A stretch of DNA of 21,533 nt from an uncultured bacterium (GTDB lineage: Bacteria; Bdellovibrionota_C; UBA2361; CAKMMH01). A model generated the notes under the pieces. It worked only from the letters and a program-made list of their open reading frames with translations. It was not told where the DNA came from and did no database searches. Shown here in pieces: positions 5,766 to 21,520 of the stretch. Each line of letters begins with the position of its first letter. Position 1 is the first letter of the stretch. The translations under genes were made by a program, and so were the position numbers. Location of the stretch: positions 1 to 21,533 of the forward strand of contig CAKMMH010000006.1 of NCBI GenBank assembly GCA_927798255.1. Reading direction: 5' to 3'.

Positions 5766-6004
5766 AGTTTATAATCTTTTAATATTTTTTGCTTTAAGTT
5801 TATAAAAATTGAAAAAACAAGAAAGAAAAGTATAAAGATTAACCTTGACTTGTTAGTTTTAAATATTACTAACTAGAATCATGAAAGAGTAAATTATCAT
5901 AAATTTAATAAAAAGTCGAATTTTCCTTTTTGAAAAAGCAAATTCAGTATTGTTATTCTCGATTATTTTAAAGTGTAACATATTTTTTATAAAAGGATTT
6001 TCTC

Positions 6005-6385: not shown

Positions 6386-6402
6386 TGTTTAAAATGCTTA
6401 AA

Positions 6403-6438
6403 AAGCTTGCGTATTTTCACTTGAAACTAGGCAAGCTT
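6403..6438 (-). terminator. Rho-independent terminator for the minus-strand gene 6444-6757
   Basis: AAGCTTGC (6403-6410) pairs with GCAAGCTT (6431-6438), with an inner TTTCA/TGAAA hairpin. On the minus strand the stem is followed by TTTTT. It begins five bases after the stop codon of the accessory gene. It also lies after the pilin gene, but has no T-run on the plus strand. Confidence 0.6.
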
Positions 6439-6443
6439 AACGG

Positions 6444-6757
6444 TTACGGGTTAAAATCCTCAGGAAGCTTTCTTTCCTTAACGTAATAATTGATTTGCTC
6501 TTTATCCATTATTACGGGTAGAAAGTCGCGAAGTTGCTCTTTCGTGTTGAATATTAACTTAGAAAGCCTTGCCTCTGAGTTTTTATTATATGATTTAAGC
6601 TTACCTTCGATACGCTCGATGCACAGTTTGATCCTATGCTGCCTAGTTGAAGAAAATCAAGGATTTGTTTATTGTTTGTATCTTTAGGCTTGGCGTTGCA
6701 TAACAATTGGTAAAAGCGCGAAGTATCGGAAAACCTTTTTGTAAGATTTATATCCAC
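6444..6757 (-). pseudogene. Frameshifted small accessory gene, unknown function
   Basis: A GTG start at 6757 is preceded by AGAAAGG at good spacing. The first frame reads (M)DINLTKRFSDTSRF...NNKQILDFLQ and then runs into meaningless sequence. From about 6630 another frame continues as a convincing protein: RIKLCIERIEGKLKSYNKN, then EARLSKLIFNTKEQLRDFL, and ending YYVKERKLPEDFNP with stop at 6444. Joined, it would be a charged, largely helical protein of about 104 residues. A terminator hairpin follows at once, so this was a complete transcription unit, now broken by one frameshift. I do not recognise the family. Base composition is less AT-rich than the neighbouring pilin and protease genes. 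The same AGAAAG-type ribosome binding site precedes other unfamiliar minus-strand genes in the window. Confidence 0.65.
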
Positions 6758-6904
6758 TTGTTACCTTTCTATCGTTAATTGTTAGAGGGAATTTGGTGGT
6801 TAAAAATGCTGTTAATTATATTGATATTTACTGTATTATGCAAATTATTAGGTTGATTTTTAGTAAGAACTAAAGAGGCAAAATATAAGATATTTTTAAT
6901 ATAA

Positions 6905-6946
6905 AAATAGCGAGATAAGAAATTTTTTATTGTTATCTCGCTATTT
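6905..6946 (-). terminator. Terminator of the serine protease gene
   Basis: AAATAGCGAGATAA (6905-6918) and TTATCTCGCTATTT (6933-6946) are perfect 14-base complements with a 14-base loop. On the minus strand the stem runs into TTTTTAT. It lies 10 bases past the protease stop codon. Confidence 0.85.
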
Positions 6947-6956
6947 AATATGAAAA

Positions 6957-7754
6957 TTAAAGTTGTTTTACGCTTGCATTTGCAAGAATAAAGCTTGTAT
7001 TTTCAGAAAAATATAATCCTGGGAAGAATGTTTTATCTCCAGAAAGGCAGTCTCCTACAGTACCACTACTTGTTACTCCAAAAACTCCAAGAACTCCATC
7101 TACATAACCAAATGCAGGTCCGCCAGAATCACCAAAACAAACATTTGTATGAGTGTCATCATAAGCTAACACAAACCCAGATTTATAAGTTTCAGAAGCC
7201 TTCATATATGCAGCTTTTAGTGTGCCATAATCTTTATTCTCGTCTTCTCCGTATCCTGCAACAATTAAAGTTTCACCATTTTTAACACTTCTACTTGTAA
7301 TAATAGGAAGAGGAGCAATGCTAAAAGTACCAGCAATTTTTACTAATGCTACGTCATTTCTATCGTAATTTCTAGCTGGTGAAGGGTTTTTATCATATAA
7401 TGGATGAATAATTGCTTGTACAGCATCATAAGTTTTGCCTCCTGCCTTGATTGCTACAGCTATAGCTCCTTCTTCAAAACAGTGAGCAGCTGTAAGAACA
7501 GTGTTACTATTAATTATTGTTCCTGTGCATAAACCTTCATTGTTGTATTCATTTGTTATATCTAATTCAACAATGGCTGATTTTGATTTATCGCATGTAA
7601 CGCCATTTATTATTTTATTTAATGATTTTGAAATACCAAGTTCTTCACACGCTGTTGAATGTGGGTCGTCGCTATGATGACTTTTTGACTCTGTACATGC
7701 ACTAGCACATAATGCTAATGATGCAATAATGCACAATAAAAATTTTTTATTCAT
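6957..7754 (-). CDS. Lipoprotein-anchored S1 (trypsin-fold) serine protease
   Basis: Protein of 265 residues. The ATG at 7754 is chosen because AAGGGA lies just upstream; an open frame extends further but has no start signals. The signal peptide ends in a lipobox LCASAC, giving a lipidated Cys20. A short linker leads to K47-IINGV, which looks like the zymogen activation site (normally R/K-IVGG). The catalytic triad is visible: His91 in VLTAAHC, Asp134 in RNDVALVKI and Ser210 in CFGDSGGP. Cys76-Cys92 match the conserved disulfide around the His. The residue six before Ser210, which sets S1 specificity, is Asn204 rather than the Asp of trypsin, so cleavage after Lys/Arg is not expected. It is likely an outer-membrane or surface protease. 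It is a single gene with its own terminator; its target is unknown. Confidence 0.9.
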   Translation of the reverse strand: MNKKFLLCIIASLALCASACTESKSHHSDDPHSTACEELGISKSLNKIINGVTCDKSKSAIVELDITNEYNNEGLCTGTIINSNTVLTAAHCFEEGAIAVAIKAGGKTYDAVQAIIHPLYDKNPSPARNYDRNDVALVKIAGTFSIAPLPIITSRSVKNGETLIVAGYGEDENKDYGTLKAAYMKASETYKSGFVLAYDDTHTNVCFGDSGGPAFGYVDGVLGVFGVTSSGTVGDCLSGDKTFFPGLYFSENTSFILANASVKQL

Positions 7755-7887
7755 AAAAAATCCCTTCTTTAAAAAATTAAAATATTTATAGGCTATATTT
7801 AAAAGTTTATAATAATAATAAAAATTAATATCAAAATAGTAAACAGCTAAGCTCACCTTTTTAAATTAACGTAAGACAATCAATATT

Positions 7888-8544
7888 TTATAAACGGATT
7901 GCTTTTAGATAATTTATTTTTAATCCTTGTGATAAAAATAAGCTTTCAAATTCTGTCTTTATGTTATTCTCTAAATAAGGGCTATTATATAAATCTTCTG
8001 TAAATTCTGAAATTTTATAGAGTTTATTACTATCTAAAAATTCTTTCGTATCTAAAAACCGTTCTTTGTGATCAGTTTTGTATAAAAATTCACCATTTTT
8101 TACTAGTATTAAACTTAAATCGTTAAAAAAATCATTTGATAGTACTCTGTGTTTTTCCCACCTATCTTTATCCCATGGGTCTGGAAAATTTATGAAAAGT
8201 TTTGAAATAGAATTGTTTTTAAACCAACACTTTAAATTTCTAGCATCATTTCTTATTAAAATGACATTATTAAGTTCTTCTTTTTTAGCTTTCTTAGCAG
8301 TCATATAAATTCGTTTAAACCTGAGTTCAAAGCCAACTATAAGAAATTGTGGGTATTTTTTTGCAATTTCTATAAGATGCTTCCCAGAGCCTGAACAAAT
8401 TTCTACTATAACACCTTCAAATTTTGCAATTTTGGTATCTAGAATTAACTTCTCACTTTCTTCTATCTTGTTGAAATTACAAGGAATTATATATTCGCTT
8501 TCTTCTTTTATCTTGTTAACATAAGGGTTTACATCGTCTCTCAT
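7888..8544 (-). CDS. trmB: tRNA (guanine-N7-)-methyltransferase
   Basis: Protein of 218 residues, the usual TrmB length. The SAM-binding motif I is EICSGSGKH (residues 48-56; the family usually has GSGxG), with an acidic residue at the end of strand 2 in GFELR (71-75). The family hallmark NFPDPWDKDRWEKHR sits at about 119-133 (usually PDPWPKKRH). The tail has YKTDHKERF and the C-terminal TEFESLFLSQGLKINYLKA, matching the T-x-x-E/Y-x-x-F substrate-binding end. The enzyme makes m7G46 in the variable loop of several tRNAs using S-adenosylmethionine. It starts 113 bases from the divergent lipoprotein gene. No strong Shine-Dalgarno sequence precedes the ATG. Confidence 0.9.
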   Translation of the reverse strand: MRDDVNPYVNKIKEESEYIIPCNFNKIEESEKLILDTKIAKFEGVIVEICSGSGKHLIEIAKKYPQFLIVGFELRFKRIYMTAKKAKKEELNNVILIRNDARNLKCWFKNNSISKLFINFPDPWDKDRWEKHRVLSNDFFNDLSLILVKNGEFLYKTDHKERFLDTKEFLDSNKLYKISEFTEDLYNSPYLENNIKTEFESLFLSQGLKINYLKAIRL

Positions 8545-8657
8545 AAAAGTTATTCTATATCAGATTTAAGAAATTTTTACAAATATTAAAAAGAAGCATA
8601 TTAGAATATTTGAACGATTAAGACATGTCTAAAGTTTTTTATGAGGTAATAATATTT

Positions 8658-9059
8658 ATGAAGAAGCTTGTTTTAGCATTGTTAATAATTGGTATGACAG
8701 GTTGCACAACTTTAAAATCATTCTTTGAAAATATCCCAGTAGGTGCATTAACAGGAACAATAATTGGAGCAGGAACGGGTGCAGGAATAGGCGCTGCTAT
8801 TAGTAATGGTGACCCAGGAAAAAGTGCTCTTTTAGGTGCAGCTATAGGGCTTGTTGCTGGTGGTATCACAGGTGCTATCGTTGAAAGTCAAGATGAAGCA
8901 AAACAAAGACAAGAGTTCATTGAGAAAGTAAGACACAATCAGCAAGACATTTATAACAAAGAAAGAGAGATTGATATTTTAAGACGACAAGTAGAAAGTG
9001 AAACTCCTCATGGACTTCCTCCTCAAGAAACTAAAAAATATTTATATGGAGGTGATTGA
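8658..9059 (+). CDS. Glycine-zipper lipoprotein
   Basis: Protein of 133 residues from the ATG at 8658; an upstream in-frame ATG (8625) lacks a ribosome binding site, while GAGG lies 11 bases before 8658. The signal peptide MKKLVLALLIIGMTGC carries a lipobox with Cys16. Residues about 30-75 are a Gly/Ala-rich zipper (GALTGTIIGAGTGAGIGAAI, then ALLGAAIGLVAGGITGAI). This is like the glycine-zipper lipoproteins of Proteobacteria (OmpA-like or SlyB/Pal-adjacent types), which insert two helices into the outer membrane. The C-terminal part (80-133) is charged and helical and looks able to form a coiled coil (KREIDILRRQVES in outline). It probably supports outer-membrane integrity; the exact family is not fixed. 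Confidence 0.8.
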   Translation: MKKLVLALLIIGMTGCTTLKSFFENIPVGALTGTIIGAGTGAGIGAAISNGDPGKSALLGAAIGLVAGGITGAIVESQDEAKQRQEFIEKVRHNQQDIYNKEREIDILRRQVESETPHGLPPQETKKYLYGGD

Positions 9060-9102
9060 GAGCAATACTGATAATGTTTTTAATCAATCCTTAGGGTAAG
9101 AA

Positions 9103-9136
9103 AAAAGGCGATTTATTTTTTAATAAATCGCCTTTT
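9103..9136. terminator. Bidirectional terminator between the lipoprotein gene and clpX
   Basis: AAAAGGCGATTTATT and AATAAATCGCCTTTT pair around a TTTT loop, with A-runs before and T-runs after. It serves both the plus-strand lipoprotein gene and the convergent minus-strand clpX gene. Confidence 0.9.
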
Positions 9137-9179
9137 ATTTTATTGGGAGATTATACGATAAAATTTTTAAAATCTGTTT

Positions 9180-10439
9180 TTAGCTAGCTAAAGCTTCTTT
9201 ATTTTTATTTTCTTTATGTAAAAGTCTTTTTGCTTTCTCCTGATTTTTAATTACTTTTTCATTAATAACAATTTCTTTAATTTCAGGATGACTTGGAACA
9301 TCAAACATAGTATCAAGCATAGCTTTTTCTATAATTGTTCTTAAGCCTCTAGCACCAGTTTTCTTTTCTAATGCTTGATTAGCAATTTCATCTAATGCTT
9401 CTTTTGTTATTTGTAAATTAACATTGCTCATAGAAAGAAGTTTTTCATACTGCTTAACAAGAGCATTCTTTGGTTCTGTTAAAATCTTTACAAGTGCTGG
9501 TTTGTCAAGTTCCTTAAGAGTTGCAATAACAGGAACACGGCCTATAAATTCTGGAATCATGCCATATTTAACAAGGTCATGACTTTCAATGTTTTCTAAA
9601 ATATTTGGATTAATTTCATCTTGTTTTTCTACTTTTGCACCAAAACCTAAATTCTTTTTACCAATTCTTTGGTTAACAATTTTATCTAGTCCGTCAAATG
9701 CACCACCTATAATAAATAAAATATTTTTAGTGTTAACTTGAATAAATTCTTGTTGCGGATGTTTTCTTCCACCCTTTGGAGGAACGTTTGCAATTGTGCC
9801 TTCAATTAGTTTTAAAAGAGCTTGTTGAACACCTTCTCCTGAAACATCACGTGTTACAGAAGGAGAATCACTCTTTCTTGCAATTTTATCAATCTCATCA
9901 ATGTAAATAATTCCTTTCTCAGCTTTTTCTACATCATAATCTGTTGCTTGAAGGAGAGAAACAAGTACGTTTTCAACGTCTTCGCCAACATATCCAGCTT
10001 CTGTTAAGCTTGTAGCATCAGCAATTGTAAAAGGAACATCAAGAATTTTTGCTAAGGTTTGTGCAAGTAGTGTCTTTCCACTTCCTGTAGGACCAATAAG
10101 CAAAATATTTGATTTTTGAAGCTCAACATCATGTTTTGTTTTAAAGTTATTTTCTAATCTTTTGTAATGATTATGAACGGCTACTGAAAGTACTTTTTTA
10201 GCGTATTCTTGGCCAATAATATATTCATCAAGTTGTTTCATAATTTCTTGAGGAGTAGGGATTTTCTTTGGTTTGTCAGGTTCAAAGTCATCAAAATTTT
10301 GTTCTAGAATCTCAGCGCAAAGTTCTACGCATTCGTCGCAAATATAAACCCCAGGGCCTGCAACTAATTTTTTTACTTCATCTTGATGTTTACCACAAAA
10401 TGAACAATATAATTCATTATCCATCATATCATTTGACAT
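9180..10439 (-). CDS. clpX: ATP-dependent Clp protease ATP-binding subunit ClpX
   Basis: Protein of 419 residues, full length. An N-terminal zinc-binding domain has C12-x2-C15 and C34-x2-C37. The AAA+ core has Walker A GPTGSGKT at 116-123, the GYVG pore loop at 149-152, Walker B IIYIDE ending at 182, and the RKH substrate loop. The ClpP-docking loop reads LGF (in [11 protein letters not shown]), and a GARGLR sensor-2 follows. ClpX unfolds tagged proteins such as ssrA-tagged chains and feeds them to ClpP. clpP is not next door, unlike the frequent tig-clpP-clpX order, and no lon follows. The start is supported by GAGG about ten bases upstream. The 183-base gap to the divergent gene should hold both promoters, but I see no clear consensus. 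Confidence 0.97.
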
Positions 10440-10623
10440 ATTAAATAACCTCTTTTAAATTTTTTTAAGTTAACAATAAGTTCCTTTTTATGATGAATAT
10501 CACTTTAAAAGGTTGTTATTTTAATTGTAAAAATTTTATTACAAATTAGCATATAGTTTTGACTATGAGTTTTTGATATACTGCTAAAAAAGATTGGTGT
10601 TTTAATTATAAGGAAAATTTGCT

Positions 10624-10824
10624 ATGTCAGAATGTAATTTTAATGTTGGAGATAGAGTTCAAAGGTTAGAAGGAAAAGAGATTTTAGGTGTAGTTAAGGA
10701 AGTTCGTGCAGAGCTTAGAAAACCTGGTCAAAAAGAAGCAGAGGCTTCAGAATATATGATAAAAGTTTTGTGGGATAGTGGAACAGAGTCTTATTTTGGC
10801 CCAGAGGCGTTAAAAAAAGTTTGA
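10624..10824 (+). CDS. Small beta-barrel-like (Tudor/SH3-type) protein
   Basis: Protein of 66 residues, preceded by AAGGAAAA about ten bases before the ATG. The pattern VGDRVQRLEGKEILGVVKEVR, then YMIKVLWDSGTESYFGPEALKKV, alternates short strands. It has a GDxV opening and a final W-D-x-G...P-x-x-L segment. This resembles small Tudor/SH3-like barrels of the kind annotated as hypothetical or as DUF2945-like (a hypervirulence-associated Tudor domain). I cannot assign a ligand. No signal peptide is seen, so it should be cytoplasmic. A candidate extended -10 (TGATATACT, 10574-10582) precedes it. It is followed after 45 bases by the EEP-like membrane protein gene on the same strand, so they may share a transcript. 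Confidence 0.7.
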   Translation: MSECNFNVGDRVQRLEGKEILGVVKEVRAELRKPGQKEAEASEYMIKVLWDSGTESYFGPEALKKV

Positions 10825-10869
10825 TTATAAATTATTGATATTAATAGAAAATATTATAAGTTTTGTAAG

Positions 10870-11643
10870 ATGTTGTGTAAAAAATTGGCTAAATGGATTT
10901 TGTGTTGTTTTTTAGCTTTTTTACTACTTTATCTTATTCCGGTCTTGTTTTCTAACGATAACTTTGAAACTAAAATAAAAGACGGTCTAAAGGATAGCAA
11001 AAAAGATAGCAGATATAGTGCATATTATATAAATTTACTAAGTAATAATAGCAGGTTCTGCTTAAAAGAATGTAATAACGGTGATAAGCATTTAAATAAT
11101 TTTATATCAGAAACGCATGCTGATATTTACATTATTCGAAGTCAAAATAAGTTAGATAATTTAGAGTTCAAAGATTATTATACTTACTCTCAATCGCTTT
11201 CTTCTGTGCTTACTATAATTTCAAAATATAAATTAGTGAAAAATAGGGTAGTTTTAAAAGAAAAATTTTTTAATCCTATTTTTACAGGAGTTATTAAATT
11301 TCCAGAAAAAAGAATTTTATTTTCTTTTCTTTCTACATCATTTTTACCAAATGCTTATGAAAGTAAAAAATTTAGAAGATATTTAATGCTAAGGCGTAAT
11401 TTTACGGAGTTTAGACATAAAAAGCTTCCAATTTTGTATTTAGCAGATTGGCGTTTAAATTTTTTCTCTTATCTTAGATGGTGCCATTACTTACAAATAA
11501 AGCCTGTAAATTACATATACAATTTATTTTCACGTAAGAATAAGATACAAGTTTTTACCTCTACAAATAATCTTAAAGTTTACTCGATTACTAAAGATGA
11601 ATTAGGAGGAGTATGGGTTGATTTTAGTTTAAGAAAACATTAA
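10870..11643 (+). CDS. Membrane-anchored EEP-fold-like protein lacking catalytic residues
   Basis: Protein of 257 residues with one N-terminal membrane helix (about residues 9-27) and a soluble remainder facing the periplasm. I do not recognise it by overall similarity. Its segments nevertheless line up in order with membrane-anchored endonuclease/exonuclease/phosphatase (EEP) proteins. YYINLLSNNSRF then FISETHADIYIIRSQ matches the family's N-vLx-N ... ADIivLqEv strand. VLTIISKYKLVKN matches the GvailSKyPl segment. RILFSFLSTSFLP matches the strand ending in the HL motif. LPILYLADWRLNFFS matches the PviVaGDFN strand. In each case the expected catalytic residue is missing: Glu becomes Ser/Gln, His becomes Ser/Thr, and GDFN becomes ADWR. 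The C-terminal SxH motif is also not evident. The likely reading is a pseudoenzyme or a very divergent relative. The ribosome binding site is weak. Confidence 0.6.
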   Translation: MLCKKLAKWILCCFLAFLLLYLIPVLFSNDNFETKIKDGLKDSKKDSRYSAYYINLLSNNSRFCLKECNNGDKHLNNFISETHADIYIIRSQNKLDNLEFKDYYTYSQSLSSVLTIISKYKLVKNRVVLKEKFFNPIFTGVIKFPEKRILFSFLSTSFLPNAYESKKFRRYLMLRRNFTEFRHKKLPILYLADWRLNFFSYLRWCHYLQIKPVNYIYNLFSRKNKIQVFTSTNNLKVYSITKDELGGVWVDFSLRKH

Positions 11644-11737
11644 TTCTCTAAATATAATACTACTTGTAGCAATTTGAGTTTAACTTTATTATCTTTAAAG
11701 TTATTTTTTATATTTTCTTATATTAAAGGTGAATTAT

Positions 11738-12124
11738 ATGGCAAATTTTAAAATTGAATATTTAGGAAATTTACAATGTAAAGCTACTCATAGCGACACA
11801 GGGATTTCATTTATTACAGATGCTGCAAATGATAAAAATGGGATTTCTCCAACAGATTTGCTTGCTTCTTCTTTGGCTACTTGCACTGCAAGTATGATTG
11901 CCTTTGGTGCAGAGGCTAGGGGGATTGATGTAAAAGGCATGCAAGTTATTGCTACAAGAGAAATGAATATGAAAGAACATAAAATTAGTAAAATTACGTT
12001 AGAAATTACTTTTGATAAGCCATTAAGTGAAGAAAATAAAAAAGTATTAATGCAAATTGCAAAAACCTGTCCTGTAAAAAAAGCTCTAAATGAAGATTTA
12101 GATGTTTTTGTAAGTTTTAACTAA
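11738..12124 (+). CDS. OsmC-family peroxiredoxin-like protein
   Basis: Protein of 128 residues. The start at 11738 is set by AAAGGTG, with six bases to the ATG, rather than the GTG three codons earlier. It has the OsmC fold pattern: an N-terminal beta part; GISPTDLLASSLATCTASMI with the peroxidatic Cys49 on the central helix; a middle beta part ending KITLEITFDKPL; and AKTCPVKKAL with Cys111. OsmC/YhfA-type proteins reduce organic hydroperoxides through this cysteine pair as dimers. It matches the shorter YhfA-like branch in length. It lies 94 bases after the EEP-like gene on the same strand and may have its own promoter. Confidence 0.9.
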   Translation: MANFKIEYLGNLQCKATHSDTGISFITDAANDKNGISPTDLLASSLATCTASMIAFGAEARGIDVKGMQVIATREMNMKEHKISKITLEITFDKPLSEENKKVLMQIAKTCPVKKALNEDLDVFVSFN

Positions 12125-12266
12125 AAGATAATTATTTGTTTTTTGTTTGGTATTTTAAGAAGTGAGATTTTCTTATTTTAAGATTTTTCTATCTATAATA
12201 AAATGTTAAAGTAGTACTTTAAGATTTTTTTAAATTTTGCAAATCTTAAAATAGGAAATATCTCAA

Positions 12267-12320
12267 ATGGCAAGAAAAAGCATGCCTCCCACAAAAAATC
12301 TAACAGAATTTAACCTCTAA
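12267..12320 (+). CDS. Possible 17-residue small ORF
   Basis: ATG with AGGA ten bases upstream encodes MARKSMPPTKNLTEFNL and a stop. It is basic and hydrophilic and contains no isoleucine, so it is not an attenuation leader for ileS. It could be a remnant of a longer gene or chance. Coding status is unproven. Confidence 0.2.
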   Translation: MARKSMPPTKNLTEFNL

Positions 12321-12342
12321 ATATATCTTTTATAAAGATAAT

Positions 12343-12373
12343 TGTTTAATTTATAGCAGTTTTTTATTATAAT
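12343..12373 (+). promoter_or_regulatory. Candidate sigma-70-type promoter for ileS
   Basis: A perfect -10 TATAAT at 12368-12373 follows a TTGTTT (12343-12348) as -35. The 19-base spacer is a little long. The start codon of ileS is 88 bases further on. Confidence 0.4.
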
Positions 12374-12460
12374 ACTATACTAGTGTTCGTGTATTTAAAG
12401 ATTAAATAACACAACGATGTTTTTGTATTAAAAGTTTATTCTTAATAAGGAAATAAGAAA

Positions 12461-15400
12461 ATGTGTGATAATGAAAAGTGCTCGTGTCATTGTGAAGATG
12501 TAAGATATCAAGAACTCTCAGGAAAACCTGAAATTGAGAATATACAAGAAGAAATTTTTAAGTTTTGGGAAAGCGAAAAAGTATTTGAACAGTCTGTAAA
12601 TAAAGAAAATGCAAGTGAGATCGTATTTTATGATGGTCCTCCGTTTCCAACAGGTATACCTCATCATGGAACAGTGCTAATTTCTTTTGTGAAAGATATG
12701 GTGGCAAGATATTGGACAATGAAAGGGTACAAAGTCCCTAGAGTTTGGGGATGGGATTGTCACGGGCTTCCTATCGAAAACCAAGTGGAGAAAGATTTAG
12801 GAATTGATGATAAGAATGATATTGAAAATAAGCTAGGAATAGCAAACTTTAATGATAAATGTTATGAGCTTGTGTGTGGAAATAATGAGTCATGGAAAGA
12901 GTATGTTAAATATATGGCTAGATGGGTTGATTATGAAGGTGCGTATAAGACCATGTATCCTAGCTTTATGGAAAGTGTTATTTGGGCATTTAAAACTTGC
13001 TATGATAAGGGGCTTATTTACCAAGACTATAGAGTAACTCCTTATTGTACACATTGTGAAACATCACTTTCAATTTCTGATACAAGAGAGTCTGACTCAA
13101 CTCGTCCAAGACAAGATAGATGGGTAATCGTAAAATTTAAGTCTGAAGAGATATTAGATGGTAAGCAAGTTTACTACTTGGCATGGACTACAACTCCTTG
13201 GACACTTCCTTCAAATTTATGCTTAGCCGTTGGTGCAGAACTTGAGTATTCTTACGTTGATGTAGGAGATGAAATTTTTGTTGCGTGCAAAAATGTTTTA
13301 GGAACTTATGAAAAGATTTTTGGAAAGACTCCTAAAATTTTAAAATCATGCAAAGGACAAGATTTGGTAGGTAAAATTTATGAGCCACTTTTCCCTTATT
13401 TTGAAAATCTAAAAGGCAAGGCTTTTAAAATTGTTACTGCTGATTATGTAGGCTCTGATGAAGGTGTTGGTATCGTACACACTGCCCCAGCCTTTGGTGA
13501 AGATGACTATTGGACTTGTAAGGCAAATAACATTCCTCTTGTAAATCCTGTTGATGAAAAAGGACGTTTTACTAAAGAGGTTACAGATTTTTACGATGAA
13601 GAAGGAAAGAAAAATGTAATTGAGACTAATCCTCAGGTAATCCGTTTCTTATATGATAATAATAAGGCTGTAGCAGACGGAACTATAGAGCATAATTATC
13701 CGCACTGTTGGAGATGTAAAAGACCGTTAATTTATAAGGCAATGGATGCTTGGTATTTTAATGTGACAAAGATAAAAGATAGGCTTATTGAGCTAAATGA
13801 AGAAATAAATTGGGTTCCCGAAACAGTAAAACATGGTCGATTTGGTAATTGGTTAAATAATGCTAGGGATTGGAATATTTCAAGAAATCGTTACTGGGCA
13901 ACTCCTATCCCAATTTGGGAATGTGATAAATGTAAAAAAAGAGTAGTACTTGGTGGCGTTGATGAAATTGAAAAAGTAAGTGGAAAACGATTAACAAATT
14001 TACACAGACAATACATGGATGAAGTTACGTTTAAATGCGACTGTGATGGGTGTGATGGAACGATGAGAAGAATTCCTGAAGTACTTGATTGTTGGTTTGA
14101 AAGTGGTTCAGTTCCTTTCGCGCAGAAGCATTATCCTTTTGAAAATAAAGAATGGTTCGATTCTCATTTCCCTTGTGATTTTATTGAAGAAGGTACAGGG
14201 CAAATTAGATGCTGGTTCTATTATTTGCATGTGTTATCAGTCGCATTATTTGATAAACCTTGCTTTAAAAATTGTATAGTTCATGGAACGCTTTTAGATA
14301 AAGATGGAAAGAAATTATCAAAATCATCTAAAAATTACACAGACCCTATGAAACTTATGAAGAGCTATGGGACCGATGCTTTCAGATTGTATTTATATCA
14401 AACAAACGCAATGATTGTTGGTGATGCACTATTTGAAGATAGCGGACTTCAAGATGCTTATCAGCAAATAATTCTTCCGTTCTGGAATGCATGTAATTTC
14501 TTTATTTCTTATGCAAATATTGATAACTTTCATCCATGCGAATTAAAAACTCCTACTAGTAAGAATCAGTTAGATAGATGGATCCTTGCAAAACTTTATG
14601 ATGCAGTTACGACTATCACTGAAAACATGGATAAGTATCAAGTAAACAAATATGTTGAAAGTTTAGTAGAGCTAGTTGAAGGACTAACAAATTGGTTTAT
14701 ACGTCGTTCAAGAAGACGTTTTTGGGGTAAGGGGATGCCACAAGATAAGCAAGATGCTTACGAAACATTATATTATGTTTTAGTTAATATGGCTAAACTT
14801 TTTGCACCAGTTGCACCTATTATCTCTGAAAAAATTTATAGGACATTGACAAGAAAATATTCAGTTCATTTAACTTCATGGCCAGAAATACCAGCGTCAT
14901 TTAAAGATGATAAGTTATTAAATGAAGTTAAACTTGTAAGAAATATTATCTATATTGCTCGTTCTATTAGAAATAAAAATAATGTTAAAAATAGAATTCC
15001 ATTAAATATGCTTCGTATCGCGTTGTCAGATAGCAATGATAATGAAGTTATAAAAGAGTTTAGTGAAATTATTAAAGAAGAGTTAAATGTTAAAAATATA
15101 GAAATATTAAATGATGTTGAGAGCATTGCTAAAGTTAAATATGCTCCAAACTTTAATGAGATTAAAAATCGCTATAAAGCAGAAACTCCTCAAATTATTA
15201 GTGCAATTAGGGAAGGTAAGTTTAAGTTTGAAAATGATAATATTGTAAACCTTGAAATTAATGGTGAAACAAAGTCATATGATGCAGTAATAATTCTTGT
15301 AACATATCTTGCAAAAGAAGGTGAGCATGTTGCAAGCCAAGATGGTGCAGTTGTTTCTCTTGACTTAAATATAACTGATGAACTTAAGGAAGAGGGTTTT

Positions 15401-15622
15401 GCAAGAGATATCGTAAGAAGCATACAAGATTCTAGAAAGAAGATGGATTGTGATATTACAGATATAATTCAAATAGATATTAATGGAGATGTCCCTCAAA
15501 AATGGTTGGATTACATTTATCATGAGACACTAAGTAGGCCTTCTAAATTTGATGATGAGACGCTTTCATTTGAAGTTTCTTATGATGAAGGAAAATCGGT
15601 TAAGGTAAGTTTAAGAAAATAA
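12461..15622 (+). CDS. ileS: Isoleucyl-tRNA synthetase, long type-2 form
   Basis: Protein of 1053 residues, the length of the eukaryote-like IleS2 class rather than the approximately 930-residue E. coli class. The HIGH signature is PHHGT at 67-71 within PPFPTGIPHHGTVL. The editing (CP1) domain has the threonine-rich AWTTTPWTLPSN and TAPAFGEDDYW. The KMSKS signature is KLSKS at about 618-622. The anticodon-binding and C-terminal domains end in the IleS2-style ITDELKEEGFARDIVRSIQDSR. It charges tRNA-Ile and hydrolyses Val-tRNA-Ile. IleS2 enzymes are generally less sensitive to mupirocin than type 1, which is family knowledge and not proven here. The N-terminus MCDNEKCSCHCED carries four cysteines and a histidine in eleven residues, which is unusual. 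AAGGAAATAAGAAA precedes the ATG. A stub of a second ileS lies directly downstream. Confidence 0.97.
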   Translation: MCDNEKCSCHCEDVRYQELSGKPEIENIQEEIFKFWESEKVFEQSVNKENASEIVFYDGPPFPTGIPHHGTVLISFVKDMVARYWTMKGYKVPRVWGWDCHGLPIENQVEKDLGIDDKNDIENKLGIANFNDKCYELVCGNNESWKEYVKYMARWVDYEGAYKTMYPSFMESVIWAFKTCYDKGLIYQDYRVTPYCTHCETSLSISDTRESDSTRPRQDRWVIVKFKSEEILDGKQVYYLAWTTTPWTLPSNLCLAVGAELEYSYVDVGDEIFVACKNVLGTYEKIFGKTPKILKSCKGQDLVGKIYEPLFPYFENLKGKAFKIVTADYVGSDEGVGIVHTAPAFGEDDYWTCKANNIPLVNPVDEKGRFTKEVTDFYDEEGKKNVIETNPQVIRFLYDNNKAVADGTIEHNYPHCWRCKRPLIYKAMDAWYFNVTKIKDRLIELNEEINWVPETVKHGRFGNWLNNARDWNISRNRYWATPIPIWECDKCKKRVVLGGVDEIEKVSGKRLTNLHRQYMDEVTFKCDCDGCDGTMRRIPEVLDCWFESGSVPFAQKHYPFENKEWFDSHFPCDFIEEGTGQIRCWFYYLHVLSVALFDKPCFKNCIVHGTLLDKDGKKLSKSSKNYTDPMKLMKSYGTDAFRLYLYQTNAMIVGDALFEDSGLQDAYQQIILPFWNACNFFISYANIDNFHPCELKTPTSKNQLDRWILAKLYDAVTTITENMDKYQVNKYVESLVELVEGLTNWFIRRSRRRFWGKGMPQDKQDAYETLYYVLVNMAKLFAPVAPIISEKIYRTLTRKYSVHLTSWPEIPASFKDDKLLNEVKLVRNIIYIARSIRNKNNVKNRIPLNMLRIALSDSNDNEVIKEFSEIIKEELNVKNIEILNDVESIAKVKYAPNFNEIKNRYKAETPQIISAIREGKFKFENDNIVNLEINGETKSYDAVIILVTYLAKEGEHVASQDGAVVSLDLNITDELKEEGFARDIVRSIQDSRKKMDCDITDIIQIDINGDVPQKWLDYIYHETLSRPSKFDDETLSFEVSYDEGKSVKVSLRK

Positions 15623-15631
15623 TATTTATGA

Positions 15632-15911
15632 AAGCTTGATACTCATTTAACCCATGAGTTAATTTTTCAAGGAATTGTGAGAGAAATTGCAAGAGAAATT
15701 ATTAGAAACTTACAAGTGTTAAGAAAAGACACAGGGGATGTTGTTTCAGCAAAAAATTAATATTGCAATTTCTTCATCAGCTAGTCTTGTAAAAGAAGCA
15801 GTTGAGAAATTTAAAGAAAAGATTATGGCTGAAACATTAGCACTATCACTAGAAGAAAATATTGATAATGCAGATAGTGAAAGTTCAATAGATGCAAATA
15901 ATGAAGCGTAA
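15632..15911 (+). pseudogene. C-terminal remnant of a second, divergent ileS
   Basis: Nine bases after the ileS stop, the frame opens with KLDTHLTHELIFQGIVREI, continuing AREIIRNLQVLRKDTGDVVSAK. This is the IleS2 C-terminal motif (T-x-EL-x-x-EGI-AREI-x-R-x-IQ-x-LRK). A stop follows because of one surplus base in an A6 run near 15755. Removing one A restores INIAISSSASLVKEAVEKFK, then EKIMAETLALSLEENID and a stop at 15911. No start codon or N-terminal part remains. The sequence is clearly related to, but diverged from, residues about 965-1053 of the intact gene, so it is not a recent tandem copy. The simplest reading is the leftover tail of an older ileS after replacement by, or recombination with, the present one. 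Confidence 0.75.
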
Positions 15912-15970
15912 CGATTAAAGTTAAGAAGTAAAAATATTTAAATTTTGTAGAGTTCTTATAATAAAAGATT

Positions 15971-16040
15971 CCTAACGAAGCCTGTAAGGTAGAAGGCGTA
16001 TATTGTGTGATGGCCTCCTATCCTTAAAGGCTTCGATAGG
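15971..16040 (-). terminator. Long hairpin downstream of the intact accessory gene
   Basis: CCTAaCGAAGCCT (15971-15983) pairs with AGGCTTCGaTAGG (16028-16040), with one A-A mismatch. Inside it, TAAGG/CCTTA and AGGC/GCCT blocks pair as well, giving a 70-nt interrupted stem. It lies 13 bases after the stop of the minus-strand gene and is followed by a T-rich stretch on that strand. It is larger than a normal terminator. Confidence 0.6.
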
Positions 16041-16052
16041 TTGTGAAAATTT

Positions 16053-17063
16053 CTACTCAACCTTAACGCCAAGTTTTTTTAAATTCTCAAGAATCGTGTA
16101 CAACGTTTTCGCAAGTTCATTTGCAAAGAGCTGCGTTGGAATATTTGTAATCCTAGGCCCTATACTAGTTATGAATTGCGGTACTTTGTTAGCCTCTATA
16201 AACGCTTGAAGTGTGACTAGTTGTTGGTAGTCACACCAAGGCTGACTTGATGCAAGTACGATTCTCTCGCTCTCAGTAATAGCGTTTTCTTTAATATAGT
16301 CAACTACCGTGTCATAGGTTGTTGGTCTATTTGTAGTTGAAACGCTATTTATGTAGACGATTTCTGGCGTTGCTCTGTAAACTTCAAAGCAATCATCAAG
16401 TGAAACATTAGCTTCATTTCTTAGTGTCTCAATTGATTGATAAGGCTGACCGGTAAGAGTTTCTAGGGGATCGATTCCACTAGAAGAAAGCATAGCTTGA
16501 ATGTTCCGAGGGTGTTTGAAAACATACTTCATAAAATCGAACTCTGTTTTTATATCATATTCAAAACAGAATTCAGATTCATTGATGTAAGCATATTCTT
16601 CCTTTGTAAGTAAACGATTGCCACCAAGAATACCAATCTGTTTAAAGGTGATTTGATTTCTTGCTGCTTCTTGCAAAAGAAATGATGCTCTTTTACAAAA
16701 TGAAGCAATCGATGTTCCTAGGATTAGTGCTGATTGGTTTTCAAGTTGATGACTTCTTTTTATGCATTTACTTCTAGTGAACTTTTTGAACCACGTTTTT
16801 ACTAGTTTCGATTCGCTAGAAAAATTTTCATCTCCCTGCATCCAAACTTCATTTCGAAATTGTCTCTTGTTATTTGTAACGAACTTCTCCTGAAAAATTA
16901 AGTTAAGATTTTTAAGGGATTTAAGCTCATCTTCTTGGATTTCTGGAAGTAAGGCTCTAGCAATTTCTTTTGATGTTTGAGATGGTTTAAAATCTTTTGT
17001 AACAAGGGTGCTAAAAGTGTGAACATCTTCCATCATTTTAATAACTTCTTTAGAAGATTTCAT
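16053..17063 (-). CDS. Unknown protein with YdcF/DUF218-like signatures (intact paralogue)
   Basis: Protein of 336 residues with no signal peptide. The N-terminal 100 residues are helical and charged. After that, SALILGTSIASFCKRASFLL, then FKQIGILGGNRLLTKEE, then TTNRPTTYDTVVDYIKE, then RIVLASSQPWCDYQQ follow in order. This parallels the DUF218/YdcF Rossmann-like fold: a VLG strand, an iiSGG strand with a nearby Glu, an S-x-x-T-x-x-NA loop and a vTSxxHxxR strand. I recall similar uncharacterised proteins in intracellular bacteria such as Legionella, with a LGA...RPTT...SNQPHxxYQ pattern. The assignment is an inference and no reaction is known. AGAAAGG precedes the ATG. A decayed paralogue follows upstream in head-to-tail order. 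Base composition is less AT-biased than neighbouring core genes. Confidence 0.75.
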   Translation of the reverse strand: MKSSKEVIKMMEDVHTFSTLVTKDFKPSQTSKEIARALLPEIQEDELKSLKNLNLIFQEKFVTNNKRQFRNEVWMQGDENFSSESKLVKTWFKKFTRSKCIKRSHQLENQSALILGTSIASFCKRASFLLQEAARNQITFKQIGILGGNRLLTKEEYAYINESEFCFEYDIKTEFDFMKYVFKHPRNIQAMLSSSGIDPLETLTGQPYQSIETLRNEANVSLDDCFEVYRATPEIVYINSVSTTNRPTTYDTVVDYIKENAITESERIVLASSQPWCDYQQLVTLQAFIEANKVPQFITSIGPRITNIPTQLFANELAKTLYTILENLKKLGVKVE

Positions 17064-17323
17064 TTGACGCCGCCTTTCTGCTTTTAAAGTTAAGCTTTAT
17101 GGAACCTAAATTTATATCCTTAAAAAACGCTTAAAAGGACATTAAATGTTACAATATATTAAAATTTTAGTAAATAGTAATTGCAGGTGTTTTTTTAATT
17201 GAAATTTAATTTTTTGAATTTAAAGATAAATTTAATAATAAAAAATTCTCAAACAACACCCTTAGGATAAAATATTTAGGCTCCATTTCTCCTTTAGGCT
17301 TTGCGTGAGAATCGGTTTTTACC

Positions 17324-18333
17324 TTATTTTAGCTCGACTCCGATTCTATTGAGGATCTCAAGAATCGTATAGATTAATTTGGCAATGTGATTTCCAAACA
17401 GCGTACTCGGGACTTTTGATACCCCACTTCCGATTCCTCCTACGTTTTGAGGTAGGGGAGCTGCTTTAAAAAACGCATTTATTGACGTGAGTATTTGATA
17501 GTCATTAAATGGTTGTGACGATACAACTACTATGTTCTCTTCTGAGACATTGTTGTTTTTAACATAGTCAACAATTGTCCCATGAGTCGTCGGCTTATAA
17601 GTTGGGTGCATCGTATCGATGCGAACAATTTCTTCTATTTGTTCGTATGCTTTGAGACATTCATTAATTGTTACTCCTTCTCTAAGTGTCTCATTGCTCT
17701 GATATTATTGTTCTGTATCAATTTTGAGTTGATCGATACCGCTTGATTCTAGCATCTTACGGATATTCTCTTTATCTTGGATGATTGCATCCATAAAGTC
17801 AAATTCGAAATTTATTACGCTTTCGGATTTGAAACCATTTTGCTCGAAATACTCTCTTTCGTTAGATGTAATATTCCTATTCCCTCGAAGGGCTGCAACC
17901 TTTCTTATTGGGGGAGAACAGATAAGCATTTCTTTTAAAAGAAACGAAGTTCTCTTACAGAAATTCTTAGCTGTGCTTCCCAATATGAGAGCGGTGTCGG
18001 GAACGAATTTTAATTAGTTAAGCGAGTAAGTCTTTAAGGCTTCCTTAAACCAATTATTAAGATACTCGCTATTAAACGAAATGTATTGGTCCCCAGGTTT
18101 CCATATTTCATAACGGAATTTTCCGTTATGTGGATTAAAGAAAGTTTTTTGAAGTATTTCGTTGATCGTCGTGAACGATTCAAGATGACCTTCGTTAATA
18201 CTTGGGATTATCATCCTTGATGATTTCCTTTAGAATCTCAGAAGGGTTGAAATCTTCCGTGACTAGAGTTCTGTAGGAATGATTTTTTTAGGAGAGAGGA
18301 AAACGTACAAATAACAGCTTCTTTTTGGTCCAT
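17324..18333 (-). pseudogene. Decayed paralogue of the 16053-17063 gene
   Basis: Reading from the ATG at 18333, four disruptions are needed to recover the full paralogue. The frame shifts at a T7 tract (18283-18289), where the paralogue's TFSTLVTKDF is matched by YRTLVTEDF in the next frame. It shifts again near 18210 into MIIPSINEGHLESF. It then meets in-frame TAA codons at 18014-18016 and 17705-17707, before ending at 17324. Matching blocks include TALILGSTAKNFCKRTSFLL, VAALRGNRNITSNE, FDFMDAII, SSGIDQL, KPTTHGTIVDYVKN, VVVSSQPFNDYQ and TLFGNHIAKLIYTILEILN. The upstream region also matches the intact copy (GGTTCCATAAGCT and AGAAAG). It is therefore a duplicated full gene that has lost function. 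The equivalent of the GILGGNR motif reads AALRGNR here. Confidence 0.88.
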
Positions 18334-18508
18334 CTTAGTACTTTCTAGCTTTACAGCTTATGGAACCGTATCGAAAACTTAAGGCGCAATAACGAAAAAG
18401 CGTGATGACGCCATAAAGCTTAAAATGAAAATTATTTCATAATTGGTGTCTTAGTTAAAAATATTAGTGAAATGGTAAAGATTTTATAGAATTTTGTTAG
18501 AATTAATT

Positions 18509-18545
18509 TATGCCATATAATTATAAAAATATATTATATGGCATA
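18509..18545 (-). terminator. Terminator of the M29 aminopeptidase gene
   Basis: TATGCCATATAAT (18509-18521) and ATTATATGGCATA (18533-18545) are perfect 13-base complements with an 11-base loop, 14 bases past the stop codon. The T-tract on the minus strand is weak. Confidence 0.6.
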
Positions 18546-18559
18546 TTGAGTTTTGTTTA

Positions 18560-19795
18560 TTAAATTACAAATTTTCCTTTTTCAATTATTGGAATATTTT
18601 TCCCATCTCTAGTTTCTGCTATAACATCAACTTCAGGAGAAGAAATCATAATATCTGTGTGAAATGAACTTTTGTTAAATCCTTCATTTGCTAGCTCTTC
18701 TTCAGTCATATTATCACTTCCTTCAATGCAAAACTCAAAGCCATTACCAAGAGCTATATGACAAGCAGCATTTTCATCAAACAAAATTTCTTCAAAAATA
18801 TGCCCGCTTTGGAAAATAGGGGAGTCGGTACTTACAAGGGCGACCTCTCCTAAACGAGATGAGCCAGTATCTCCTTTTATATAACTTGCAAAATTTTCTT
18901 TTCCCTCTGTGGCATCAAAATCTGTAACGACACCATCAGTAAAAGTCATTTTTAAACCTTTTACTTGTTTTCCACTTATTAATACTGGGCGTGTTGCTTT
19001 CACTGTTCCTCTTACAGTTCTATAATCTGGAGTTGTAAAAATTTCTTCTGATGGAATATTTGGTTCAAAATCAATTCCAGTGTCTGTTCTTTCAGAGCCG
19101 CCACCAAATTTTGCCTTAGGAGAAAGCCCTATATAAAGGTCAGTTTCAGGGCCTACAAAATGAAGCTCCTTAACTTTAAATGCTTGAAGCTTTTTAACTC
19201 TTTCTTTTATAGCCTTATCTCTTTGTGTCCAAAGTTCTAAGCAATCTTCTTTATCAACCATGCAAATTTTAAAAATATCTTCCCATAACGCTTTTTCTGC
19301 TTCTTTTTCAGTAAGTGTAGGAAAAACTTTCTTACCCCATTTAGGAGAAGACATTGCAGCTATGCACCATTTCATTTTTGATTGTCCTATACCTTCTTCA
19401 TAAAATCTTTTGGCTGCTTTGTTTTTTGCAAGGCTAAGTTTAGTAATTCTTTTAGGGTCTTCATCGTTTAAAATATCTGGGTCTTCTGGGCAAATAAGAC
19501 GAATGTTCGCTATCCTTTTATCTACAAACTCATCATATTTTTTTGCTTCATAATCTAAAACAAAACTTAAATTTTCTTCTTTTGATTTATTTATTCTCAG
19601 CTTTCCTATTCTTGAGTCTATTAAATCAACATACACAGCTTTTGCACCCATCTCATATGCTTTTTTTGTTAAAAGCACGGCAAAATCTCTTCCTATACAT
19701 TCTACTGCGATATTTAATATATCGTCTTTTTTTAAACTAACACCGTGAGTTAAAATTAAATCTGCATACCTATTTAATAAAACTTGCATATCCAT
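18560..19795 (-). CDS. M29-family metalloaminopeptidase (AmpS/PepS/AmpT-like)
   Basis: Protein of 411 residues, the family length. The metal-ligand region is present in order: NIPSEEIFTTPD (first Glu), then RLGEVALV (second Glu). It continues through IFEEILFDENAACHIALGNGF (His and surrounding residues) and SSFHTDIMI (His and Asp). Gly-rich FGGGSERTDTGIDF and KATRPVLISGKQVKGL are also family segments. These cytoplasmic dimers use two Co or Zn ions to remove N-terminal amino acids from peptides, in peptide recycling. GGAG lies eight bases before the ATG; a second ATG two codons later is possible. It is a single gene with its own terminator, divergent from a small lipoprotein gene. Confidence 0.92.
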   Translation of the reverse strand: MDMQVLLNRYADLILTHGVSLKKDDILNIAVECIGRDFAVLLTKKAYEMGAKAVYVDLIDSRIGKLRINKSKEENLSFVLDYEAKKYDEFVDKRIANIRLICPEDPDILNDEDPKRITKLSLAKNKAAKRFYEEGIGQSKMKWCIAAMSSPKWGKKVFPTLTEKEAEKALWEDIFKICMVDKEDCLELWTQRDKAIKERVKKLQAFKVKELHFVGPETDLYIGLSPKAKFGGGSERTDTGIDFEPNIPSEEIFTTPDYRTVRGTVKATRPVLISGKQVKGLKMTFTDGVVTDFDATEGKENFASYIKGDTGSSRLGEVALVSTDSPIFQSGHIFEEILFDENAACHIALGNGFEFCIEGSDNMTEEELANEGFNKSSFHTDIMISSPEVDVIAETRDGKNIPIIEKGKFVI

Positions 19796-19975
19796 AAGAA
19801 AAACTCCAAGAAAAAATTTAAATGTAACAATAAAACAAATATACTATCAATATTTAGATACAAAAAGAGAAAAGTTGGTTTCTTTTTCGAAAGCGTTTTC
19901 TTAATCTATTGTCTCTTAGAATTAATAGTTTTAAACTGAACATGGTTGTATTTTTTAATAAAAGGATTTTTGGTT

Positions 19976-20290
19976 ATGAAAAAAATTGTATGTTTAATTT
20001 TACTTTCAATTTGTCTAGCTGGTTGTGGTTCACAAGTTATGTCTTTACCAACTCCTGCTCCAGCAAATAGTGATCAAGTTGTAGGTCACTGTTCAAATGC
20101 TGATGGTGGATTTTTGTTATTTAGTTTCATTCCTATCTATAATAATGGAAGACTTGAAAGAGCTTACAAGAAGTGCTTAGATTCAGTTAATGCAAACAGG
20201 TTAACAAATGTTACTGTTGTCGATAGATGGTTCTGGACTCCAGCAGGTAATGGATTTGTTACAATTGTTGAAGGAGACGGTGTAAGATAA
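19976..20290 (+). CDS. Small lipoprotein of unknown function
   Basis: Protein of 104 residues. The start at 19976 is preferred because AAAGGA lies upstream and the signal peptide MKKIVCLILLSICLAGC begins there; the lipobox places lipidated Cys at 17. The mature part is short. It contains GHCSNADGGFLLFSFIPIYN, then RLERAYKKCLDSV, ANRLTNVTVVDRWFWTPAGN and FVTIVEGDGVR. The Leu-Thr-Asn-Val-Thr and terminal GxxVR pattern resembles small envelope lipoproteins in which a short helix is followed by a beta hairpin. I cannot name the family. Two cysteines (in GHC and KKC) may form a disulfide. The leader bases before the ATG closely resemble those before the prepilin gene. Confidence 0.75.
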   Translation: MKKIVCLILLSICLAGCGSQVMSLPTPAPANSDQVVGHCSNADGGFLLFSFIPIYNNGRLERAYKKCLDSVNANRLTNVTVVDRWFWTPAGNGFVTIVEGDGVR

Positions 20291-20301
20291 TCTTTAGAAA
20301 T

Positions 20302-20341
20302 AAAAAAAGGAGTGAACTTCGAAATAACGAAATTTCACTCC
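20302..20341 (-). terminator. Terminator of the 20389-20793 gene
   Basis: GGAGTGAA-TTCG (from 20309) pairs with CGAA-TTCACTCC (to 20341). On the minus strand the stem is followed by seven T (20302-20308). The hairpin also falls 18 bases after the plus-strand lipoprotein gene, but has no T-run in that direction. Confidence 0.8.
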
Positions 20342-20388
20342 TCCTCTGAAGTCTTCAAAAATAACCCTTGGGGGCAGTAGCGAAGCGT

Positions 20389-20793
20389 TTATCTCCACTG
20401 CGGTCCCATATAGCCATGCCCTCGAGTGTTGTTCCTGTATTCAACTGGTCCAAGACCGAAGTCTTCTCGACGATGATCATTTTGACGATAGTGATGATCG
20501 TTTCGGCGATAATTGTCATAGCCATAGTTTCCGATGATCCGGATAACGAGGTCAATCCCGCAATCTTTTGCTAGCGAAATACAGTATTCTTTGGTTTTCG
20601 CATTCGCGAATTTCAAGATTTGCTTCATCGTGTCTCTAATTAGAAACACGACTTTCTTAAACTCATCCTCCGGGATATCGTGATTTGAATGGTGCAAGTT
20701 GTGGACTTGAATCCAAAGCCACTCTAAAAACGCTGCTATAGTACCTTTCCCCTGCATCAGATAGTGGCATTCTTTGCTAACAATGCGAATCAT
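20389..20793 (-). CDS. Unknown accessory protein with His/Arg/Asn/Tyr-rich tail
   Basis: Protein of 134 residues from the ATG at 20793, preceded by AGAAAGG with five bases spacing; an in-frame ATG at 20835 has no such site. I do not recognise it. The first 85 residues look like a helical domain (FLEWLWIQVHNLHHSNHDIP, then EFKKVVFLIRDTMKQILKFA, then a YCISLAKDCGID segment). The last 45 are low-complexity and rich in His, Arg, Asn, Asp, Tyr and Gly (YDNYRRNDHHYRQNDHRRED, then YRNNTRGHGYMGPQWR). Such a tail may bind nucleic acid or metal, or be disordered. Codon and base usage are less AT-biased than the neighbouring lipoprotein gene. It has its own terminator. A weak -35-like TTGACG lies about 60 bases upstream. 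Confidence 0.65.
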   Translation of the reverse strand: MIRIVSKECHYLMQGKGTIAAFLEWLWIQVHNLHHSNHDIPEDEFKKVVFLIRDTMKQILKFANAKTKEYCISLAKDCGIDLVIRIIGNYGYDNYRRNDHHYRQNDHRREDFGLGPVEYRNNTRGHGYMGPQWR

Positions 20794-20968
20794 AACAACC
20801 TTTCTAAAACAGAAAATGAGCCTAAGCTCGAACACTAAAAGACGTCAAACCGCAGAAAAATCGGTTAAGAAAGTCTTTTAATAATATTATTAAATTATAT
20901 ATATTAAATATGTATTTTGAAAAAAATGGTTGATTTATGAAGGATATTAAAAAGAAAATTTGATTTGA

Positions 20969-21025
20969 AAAGAGAAAGCATAAGACTCGAATAAATCTAA
21001 CCTTTATAAAACATGCTTTCTCTTT
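20969..21025 (-). terminator. Hairpin downstream of the 21047-21520 gene
   Basis: AAAGAGAAAGCAT (20969-20981) and ATGCTTTCTCTTT (21013-21025) are perfect 13-base complements with a 31-base loop. On the minus strand the stem is followed by TTTTCAAAT. It lies 21 bases past the stop codon. The loop is long for a terminator. Confidence 0.55.
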
Positions 21026-21046
21026 CCGTATACAATTATAGTCAAA

Positions 21047-21520
21047 CTACAATTCTCGTCCTTCTCGTCTCAAAAGATCTAAGAACTCAGGAAGTCTTTC
21101 TTTAAGCCTCTTCTTAGAGAACTCTACGACGTAGAAGTTCTTGTCCGGATTAGGAGGGGCTTCTTTGGTAGCTCTTTCTACCAACTTGAAAATATTCTCC
21201 AATGACTCTTTACCAAAAATATGAAAAGAATCATCTTGTTTTTTCGCGTTATACGGAAAATCAAGGATAAGCAGAGCATATTCGATAAGAAGATCTTTCT
21301 TTACGATCTCTTTTAAGTCGTTTGAGATTTCTTCCTTCTTATTCAGGATTTTATCAGCGGCATCAAAAACCGACAACCTGAAATCGTAGAGATCTGAATG
21401 CGATAAGACGTCGTCATCTCCGTTTTCTTTACAATAGCTGAGGTTATTTTTTAATTCCTCAAGGTCGATATCTTTTTTATCCAACATCAGTTTATAAAGC
21501 GTGATGGATAACTTGATCAT
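21047..21520 (-). CDS. Unknown helical protein, start uncertain
   Basis: Protein of 157 residues if it starts at the ATG at 21520. The frame stays open to the end of the window (21533) and no Shine-Dalgarno sequence is visible, so the true start may lie outside. The sequence is acidic-basic mixed and predicted all-helical by eye: KLMLDKKDIDLEELKNNLSY, then KILNKKEEISNDLKEIVKKD, then a hydrophobic LLIEYALLILDFPY. A short KNFYVVEFSKKRLKERLPEF and a LLRREGREL end follow. There is no signal peptide or membrane helix. I do not recognise the family. It belongs with the other less AT-biased minus-strand genes of this window by composition and by having its own downstream hairpin. Confidence 0.6.
   Translation of the reverse strand: MIKLSITLYKLMLDKKDIDLEELKNNLSYCKENGDDDVLSHSDLYDFRLSVFDAADKILNKKEEISNDLKEIVKKDLLIEYALLILDFPYNAKKQDDSFHIFGKESLENIFKLVERATKEAPPNPDKNFYVVEFSKKRLKERLPEFLDLLRREGREL

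Follow-up and report, generated by a model that had tools for sequence, protein, structure and literature searches.

The window considered here is the whole of contig CAKMMH010000006.1 (contig C6; 21,533 nucleotides) from the draft genome GCA_927798255.1 of an uncultured bacterium of the Bdellovibrionota_C; the draft comprises 1.77 Mb in 240 contigs, with a completeness of 88.55%, and no 16S rRNA was found in it. Five minus-strand genes of unusual composition are dispersed in it, and these genes, together with the genome-wide class of single-gene units to which they seem to belong, are the subject of this analysis. The genes and their flanking features are as follows, with the G+C content of third codon positions abbreviated GC3, open reading frame abbreviated ORF and protein lengths given in amino acids (aa).

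6395..6443, minus strand: hairpin and T-run terminator of 6444-6757 (RNA fold z -2.7)
6444..6757, minus strand: broken gene of foreign composition, leader AGAAAGG, GTG start (ORF reading, composition)
15970..16048, minus strand: strong imperfect hairpin without a T-run, directly 3' of the 336-aa gene (RNA fold z -9.9, DNA fold z -8.9)
16053..17063, minus strand: intact orphan gene, 336 aa, leader AGAAAGG, GC3 0.28 (ORF reading, codon composition)
17064..17130, minus strand: 5' leader of the 336-aa gene (direct reading)
17232..17323, minus strand: long hairpin with a T-run, 3' of 17324-18333 (RNA fold z -3.6)
17324..18333, minus strand: broken relative of the 336-aa gene, leader AGAAAGT (40% identity to 16053)
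20300..20388, minus strand: hairpin and T-run terminator of 20389-20793 (RNA fold z -4.4)
20389..20793, minus strand: intact orphan gene, 134 aa, ATG at 20793, leader AGAAAGG, GC3 0.48 (ORF reading, composition)
20950..21046, minus strand: hairpin followed by four T, 3' of 21047-21520 (RNA fold z -3.8)
21047..21520, minus strand: orphan gene at the contig end, 157 aa, leader lost to the contig end, GC3 0.42-0.43 (ORF reading, composition)

A preliminary description of the window, made from its letters alone, had pointed to the weaker AT bias, private hairpins and AGAAAG leaders of these genes, and these observations hold: GC3 is 0.28-0.48 in the five genes, against a mean of 0.172 (standard deviation 0.030, 99th percentile 0.263) in 458 complete ORFs of at least 200 aa from an 846-kb sample of the genome; all five genes are followed by a hairpin by RNA fold (z -9.9 to -2.7); and the leaders are present as written in the four genes with a visible leader. 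Two genes are broken, as had also been noted. The frame of 6444-6757 runs from GTG 6757 and closes at 6554 (GC3 of 6554-6757, 0.36), the remainder being open in a different frame, and 17324-18333 consists of three open pieces (18014-18214, 17705-17983 and 17324-17611; GC3 0.35-0.39), separated by two in-frame TAA codons plus a frame change upstream. Kinship among the five is confined to 16053 and 17324, whose leaders have in common a stretch like ggttccataagc.

Genes of this kind were looked for in 1.28 Mb of the 1.77-Mb assembly (72%), divided into a discovery sample (the 846 kb just mentioned: the window, C1-C5 and C7-C61, with C1-C5 and C7 cut at 20 kb) and a held-out sample (contigs C62-C121, in two sets of 308 kb and 125 kb). 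A hand-picked set of 17 genes plus the two broken window genes had GAAAGG in 8/18 leaders (3/290 in core genes) and terminators in 12/19 cases (10/120); since this set had been selected by eye, a fixed rule was adopted, which admits complete ORFs of at least 85 aa with GC3 of at least 0.30, a foreign codon score above the native one and a coding score in their own frame clearly above that of the other five frames. The discovery sample alone supplied the codon model and the criteria for GC3, length and terminators; the choice of starts was set after the first held-out set had been viewed. With a simple start choice the rule yields 14 ORFs in the discovery sample and four in the first held-out set; with starts chosen by ribosome site it yields 16 and, in the whole held-out sample, 10 (four in 308 kb, six in 125 kb). 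The class is thus 26 short ORFs with foreign codon usage, at least one of which is a piece of a broken gene, further broken genes being uncounted. Three window genes fall outside the rule: 16053 for its GC3 of 0.28, 21047 because it is treated as open-ended and 6444 because it is broken. One piece of 17324 is counted as an ORF, and an ssb gene on L146 is taken in. L085:9004 is dropped at 84 aa, L147:1767 by the frame filter and L164:1216 for its GC3 of 0.28, some of these being of membrane type. At the end of a contig, L159:10011-10958 is an open-ended ORF of at least 316 aa (GC3 0.38), possibly a large member.

The codon usage of the class is foreign. In the 18 ORFs of the first rule run, C and G make up 0.21 and 0.18 of third codon positions, against 0.075 and 0.096 in 382 core genes and 0.08 and 0.10 in nine presumed highly expressed genes picked by sequence motifs; NCG codons account for 3.3%, 1.2% and 0.6% of codons in the three groups, respectively. 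Bias driven by expression is rejected as the cause, since the presumed highly expressed genes are composed like core genes. The comparison of codon usage and G+C that the preliminary description had called for sets both the window genes and the class apart from the core genes of the genome.

The second property that distinguishes the class is the possession of a terminator, found behind 9/16 class ORFs and 33/287 core genes in the discovery sample and behind 7/10 and 13/136 in the held-out sample (p 3e-5). The detector requires five T and a stem shorter than 50 nt, and for this reason misses the hairpins of 16053, 17324 and 21047. The leader fared differently. GAAAGG within 22 nt of the start marks 5/16 class ORFs and 4/287 core genes in the discovery sample (p 2e-5) and 1/10 and 1/136 in the held-out contigs (p 0.13), and the pattern AGAAAGGN3-9ATG occurs 46 times in the genome, compared with 34 for the reversed control pattern; AGAAAG is accordingly rejected as a signature of the class, its enrichment being confined to the discovery sample, and the common start signal once proposed for these genes is not confirmed. 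The held-out contigs thus uphold the link with terminators but not that with the leader. A substitute pattern, the RAGG-TT leader, was likewise set after the first held-out set had been viewed; it marks 6/16 class ORFs and 23/287 core genes in the discovery sample, 3/4 class ORFs in the first held-out set and 0/6 in the second (together 3/10 against 14/136, p 0.09), and as a post hoc pattern it is not established statistically. RAGG-TT leaders occur in some units that encode unrelated proteins.

The terminators offer a further lead, which does not amount to a result. There are 22 copies of the tail TTTTTTATTATC in the genome, compared with nine of the reversed control; the tail follows a strong hairpin at the class units L134, L137 and L159 and at the near-class L164, and also a gene-less hairpin on L162 and a tRNA-Ser. 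A comparable fold accompanies just one more of the 22 sites, on L191, and that site is within a long open frame. Looser tails were found in 7/9 class and 2/34 core terminators in the discovery sample (first rule run) and in 0/3 and 0/9 in the held-out sample. The hairpin at L162:950-1010, with a T6ATTATC tail and no recognisable gene in front, is perhaps the last remnant of a unit.

The class has few relatives. Pfam families above cut-off were found in 3/26 class ORFs (GNAT, SSB and NDK) and in 8/10 core controls, the latter being ten core ORFs of 120-220 aa, the first half of 20 drawn from a pool of 125. The idea of an expanded family is not supported: a tblastn search within the 846 kb of the discovery sample, with the high-GC3 ORFs of the window and of the first 60 contigs as queries, revealed 16053-17324 as the only link within the class, the remaining matches being dispersed repeats or core paralogues (e.g., ssb on L146 with one on L134). 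Nor did any positive evidence emerge for the effector or selfish functions suggested earlier; besides the three Pfam assignments, a PADLOC search of ten unit proteins gave a single weak match (21047 to Cas3d, E 0.009), and a hydrophobic N-terminus was found in 0/26 class proteins and 119/423 core genes, a count that is biased because the frame filter disfavours membrane proteins.

Presence in relatives was examined in up to 95 genomes, the nearest of which belong to the same order, with none in the same family or genus; the 336-aa protein has no match in any of the 95. In 44 other genomes of the same taxonomic class, 21047 is absent and 20389 is absent save for one 26% fragment (E 0.005, two stops), its only close relatives being four with 77-93% identity. 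As a single query against 5.8 billion proteins, the 336-aa protein finds one near-identical cluster of 62 member sequences with a full-length representative. The sole distant intact relative to turn up, P0007 (367 aa; 35-37% identical to the 336-aa protein), surfaced once the pieces of 17324 had joined the query. The broken gene 17324 is 46% and 57% identical to P0007 in two stretches and 40% identical to 16053; being nearer to P0007, it does not form a fresh local duplication with 16053. The 336-aa protein has no Pfam or PHROGs family and no PADLOC match, and P0007 has no Pfam family; judged by their sequences, the two constitute a protein family that has no name in Pfam nor, as far as the 336-aa protein is concerned, in PHROGs or PADLOC. 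P0009 (2 member sequences), an acyl carrier protein fused to the C-terminal region of this protein, is probably a chimeric assembly.

The decay of 17324 can be followed in other assemblies, where partial ORFs of this gene are represented by P0008 (75 member sequences), P0010 (10), P0011 (14), P0012 (7) and P0013 (1). The ends of P0011 and P0012 coincide with the ends of the window's pieces, and P0010 and P0008 extend beyond the second break; given this mixture of matching and differing ORFs, the present draft is probably correct in showing the break, which varies among strains.

Insertion can be traced for one member of the class, on L235 (contig C101). A second ndk gene (GC3 0.35-0.37, leader AAAAGAGGTTTTACT) sits there between the native ndk (5458-5868) and rlmN (start at 4703 by homology), so that 754 bp including the foreign gene separate the two; the foreign ndk is 38% identical to the native ndk that it adjoins. 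An ndk search of 42 genomes gave a match in 36, including this genome, with loci for 29 others: in 23/29 rlmN comes next after ndk and is on the same strand (gaps of 2-370 bp), and six have no rlmN within 1.5 kb. With G007, where rlmN lies near ndk on the opposite strand, and G037, where there is no rlmN within 3.5 kb, the arrangement is found in 23 of the 31 relatives examined, four matching genomes being outside this count. The longer ndk type of G007 and G037 has no tblastn match to the foreign ndk (threshold 1e-6). Gene order in the relatives thus demonstrates insertion at an ancestral gene junction for this unit, which lies outside the window.

The explanation that we consider fairly probable is that the five window genes are part of a genome-wide class of single-gene units that resemble morons, were acquired horizontally and turn over fast. 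Singly or in pairs, genes from DNA richer in G+C would have entered the AT-rich chromosome; each would have arrived as a nearly complete transcription unit, with a leader bearing a Shine-Dalgarno site, one ORF and often a hairpin terminator, and the units, mostly orphans, would have settled between native genes, where some decay. This explanation is based on the foreign codon usage, the held-out association with terminators, the scarcity of relatives, decay that varies among assemblies and the one insertion. We infer that the five window units likewise came by insertion, and each unit would carry its own promoter. The earlier proposal of lineage-specific, acquired single-gene units between core genes stands as regards foreign codon usage, absence from relatives and decay; its insertional part is borne out for the L235 unit only. 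The units resemble phage morons in having a single gene, their own terminator and a foreign composition, and the L235 ndk unit is, as a moron would be, a single gene between genes that are adjacent in relatives; they differ in being dispersed in a bacterial chromosome with no prophage recognised around them (neighbours viewed by eye). They share short length, few relatives, atypical composition and decay with horizontally acquired bacterial ORFans, but differ in that a terminator of their own is much commoner in them than in core genes.

Several points weigh against this explanation. No donor was found, and neither were an integron integrase, a flanking repeat or an attC pattern; the longest flanking direct repeat averages 8.25 in 16 class units (7.35 after shuffling) and 7.42 in 45 core genes (6.90 after shuffling). 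A simple -35/-10 pattern precedes 5/18 units and 53/290 core genes (p 0.24), which does not set unit promoters apart from core ones. Insertion is demonstrated for one unit alone, and for none from the window; the 336-aa gene is only mildly foreign, below the 0.30 cut, and 21047, as open-ended, is excluded from the class count. Some class ORFs (L198, L269, L278) have no further gene called toward one contig end, and the draft, in its 240 contigs, carries a contamination estimate of 2.5%. The fold of the 336-aa protein belongs here as well: its best match, YdcF-like over residues 103-304, is weak and near the noise edge of the tool, the matched model has a mean predicted local distance difference test (pLDDT) score of 58, and neither Pfam nor a profile comparison with DUF218 gave support.

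As regards this fold, the first structure model had a pLDDT of 42.7; Foldseek searches against the PDB and a viral library gave no match at E <=0.001, and PDB sequence searches gave nothing useful. DUF218 (PF02698) had been considered before the fold match, which later lent it partial support. Membership by sequence is rejected on the Pfam result, on a PF02698 profile search of the genome without a match and on hhalign comparison with DUF218 (probability 0.1-0.4 per cent). On the modelled structure, the core may be YdcF/DUF218-like, of Rossmann type; the protein differs from that group in lacking the DUF218 profile match and in having an additional N-terminal third.

Among the other explanations, the units might be what is left of integrated phages or plasmids, one or a few in number, that rearrangement broke up and scattered until single cargo genes were left. 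The combination of a short orphan gene, a strong ribosome site and a terminator is typical of the accessory genes that phages carry. PMC3918226 describes two morons, each with its own promoter and terminator. Some phages carry ndk, with at most 37.6% identity among the ten matches listed, and the foreign ndk unit matches phage ndk genes at below 60% identity. On the other hand, the 336-aa protein and P0007 are unmatched in 50,697 phage and 72,556 plasmid records, as is the GNAT unit; neither P0007 nor any of five unit proteins tried matched in viral contigs; ten unit proteins gave no more than weak PHROGs matches (best E 0.004); and no structural phage genes were seen among the flanking genes, judged by eye only and without a PHROGs search. 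An origin from such remnants seems rather unlikely.

It is quite unlikely, in our estimation, that a dedicated and hitherto undescribed process inserts whole single-gene transcription units, from leader to terminator, with the TTTTTTATTATC tails and the RAGG-TT leaders as traces of a common donor element or machinery.

Native, fast-evolving lineage-specific genes with codon usage shaped by selection and no transfer are a decidedly doubtful alternative. Full-length relatives of 16053 and 20389 in other assemblies mean that at least two genes have been kept, and HU on L146, one of the nine presumed highly expressed genes, has GC3 0.29. Other presumed highly expressed genes do not have this codon usage, however; the DNA outside ORFs has 25% G+C, so genes newly born there would be AT-rich; and the low identity of the foreign ndk to the native ndk beside it speaks against native origin. 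Integron cassettes, mobile or chromosomal, dispersed from arrays and with the private hairpins as attC sites, are largely refuted and highly improbable: the units resemble them as single orphan genes with a hairpin, the one behind 16053 being long and imperfect (z -8.9 as DNA), but no arrays were seen, a TIGR02249 integrase search of the genome (assembly 88.6% complete) gave no match, a search confined to exact R''/R' pairs of the attC type found 16 against 8-50 for four permuted cores, none of the 16 with a strong fold, and several hairpins are T-run terminators.

Other features of the window include an isoleucyl-tRNA synthetase (IleRS) gene at 12461-15622, whose product is 76% identical to Ruminococcus IleRS and, on that similarity, was probably acquired. 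Within 12461-15990 it is directly followed by a degraded piece resembling the C-terminal end of another IleRS (best E 0.002); this second piece, perhaps native, suggests replacement in place. A long AT-rich hairpin (12155-12275, z -5.3) lies between an OsmC-like gene and ileS. The stretch 1314-1460 (RNA fold z -8.3) belongs to a dispersed family of imperfect palindromes, with matches in 12 other sampled contigs of the 1.28 Mb, some near contig ends, and no Rfam family at the gathering score.

The units are acquired orphan genes and as such ordinary in kind; the contrast in composition and the unit structure are unusually clear. GC3 of 0.31-0.49 against 0.17 makes the units easily seen and perhaps datable. 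If the proposed explanation is true, a bacterium with a small genome has been seeded gene by gene with orphans bearing their own terminators, and it would offer a clean system for studying the origins of orphan genes and the entry of single genes rather than islands.

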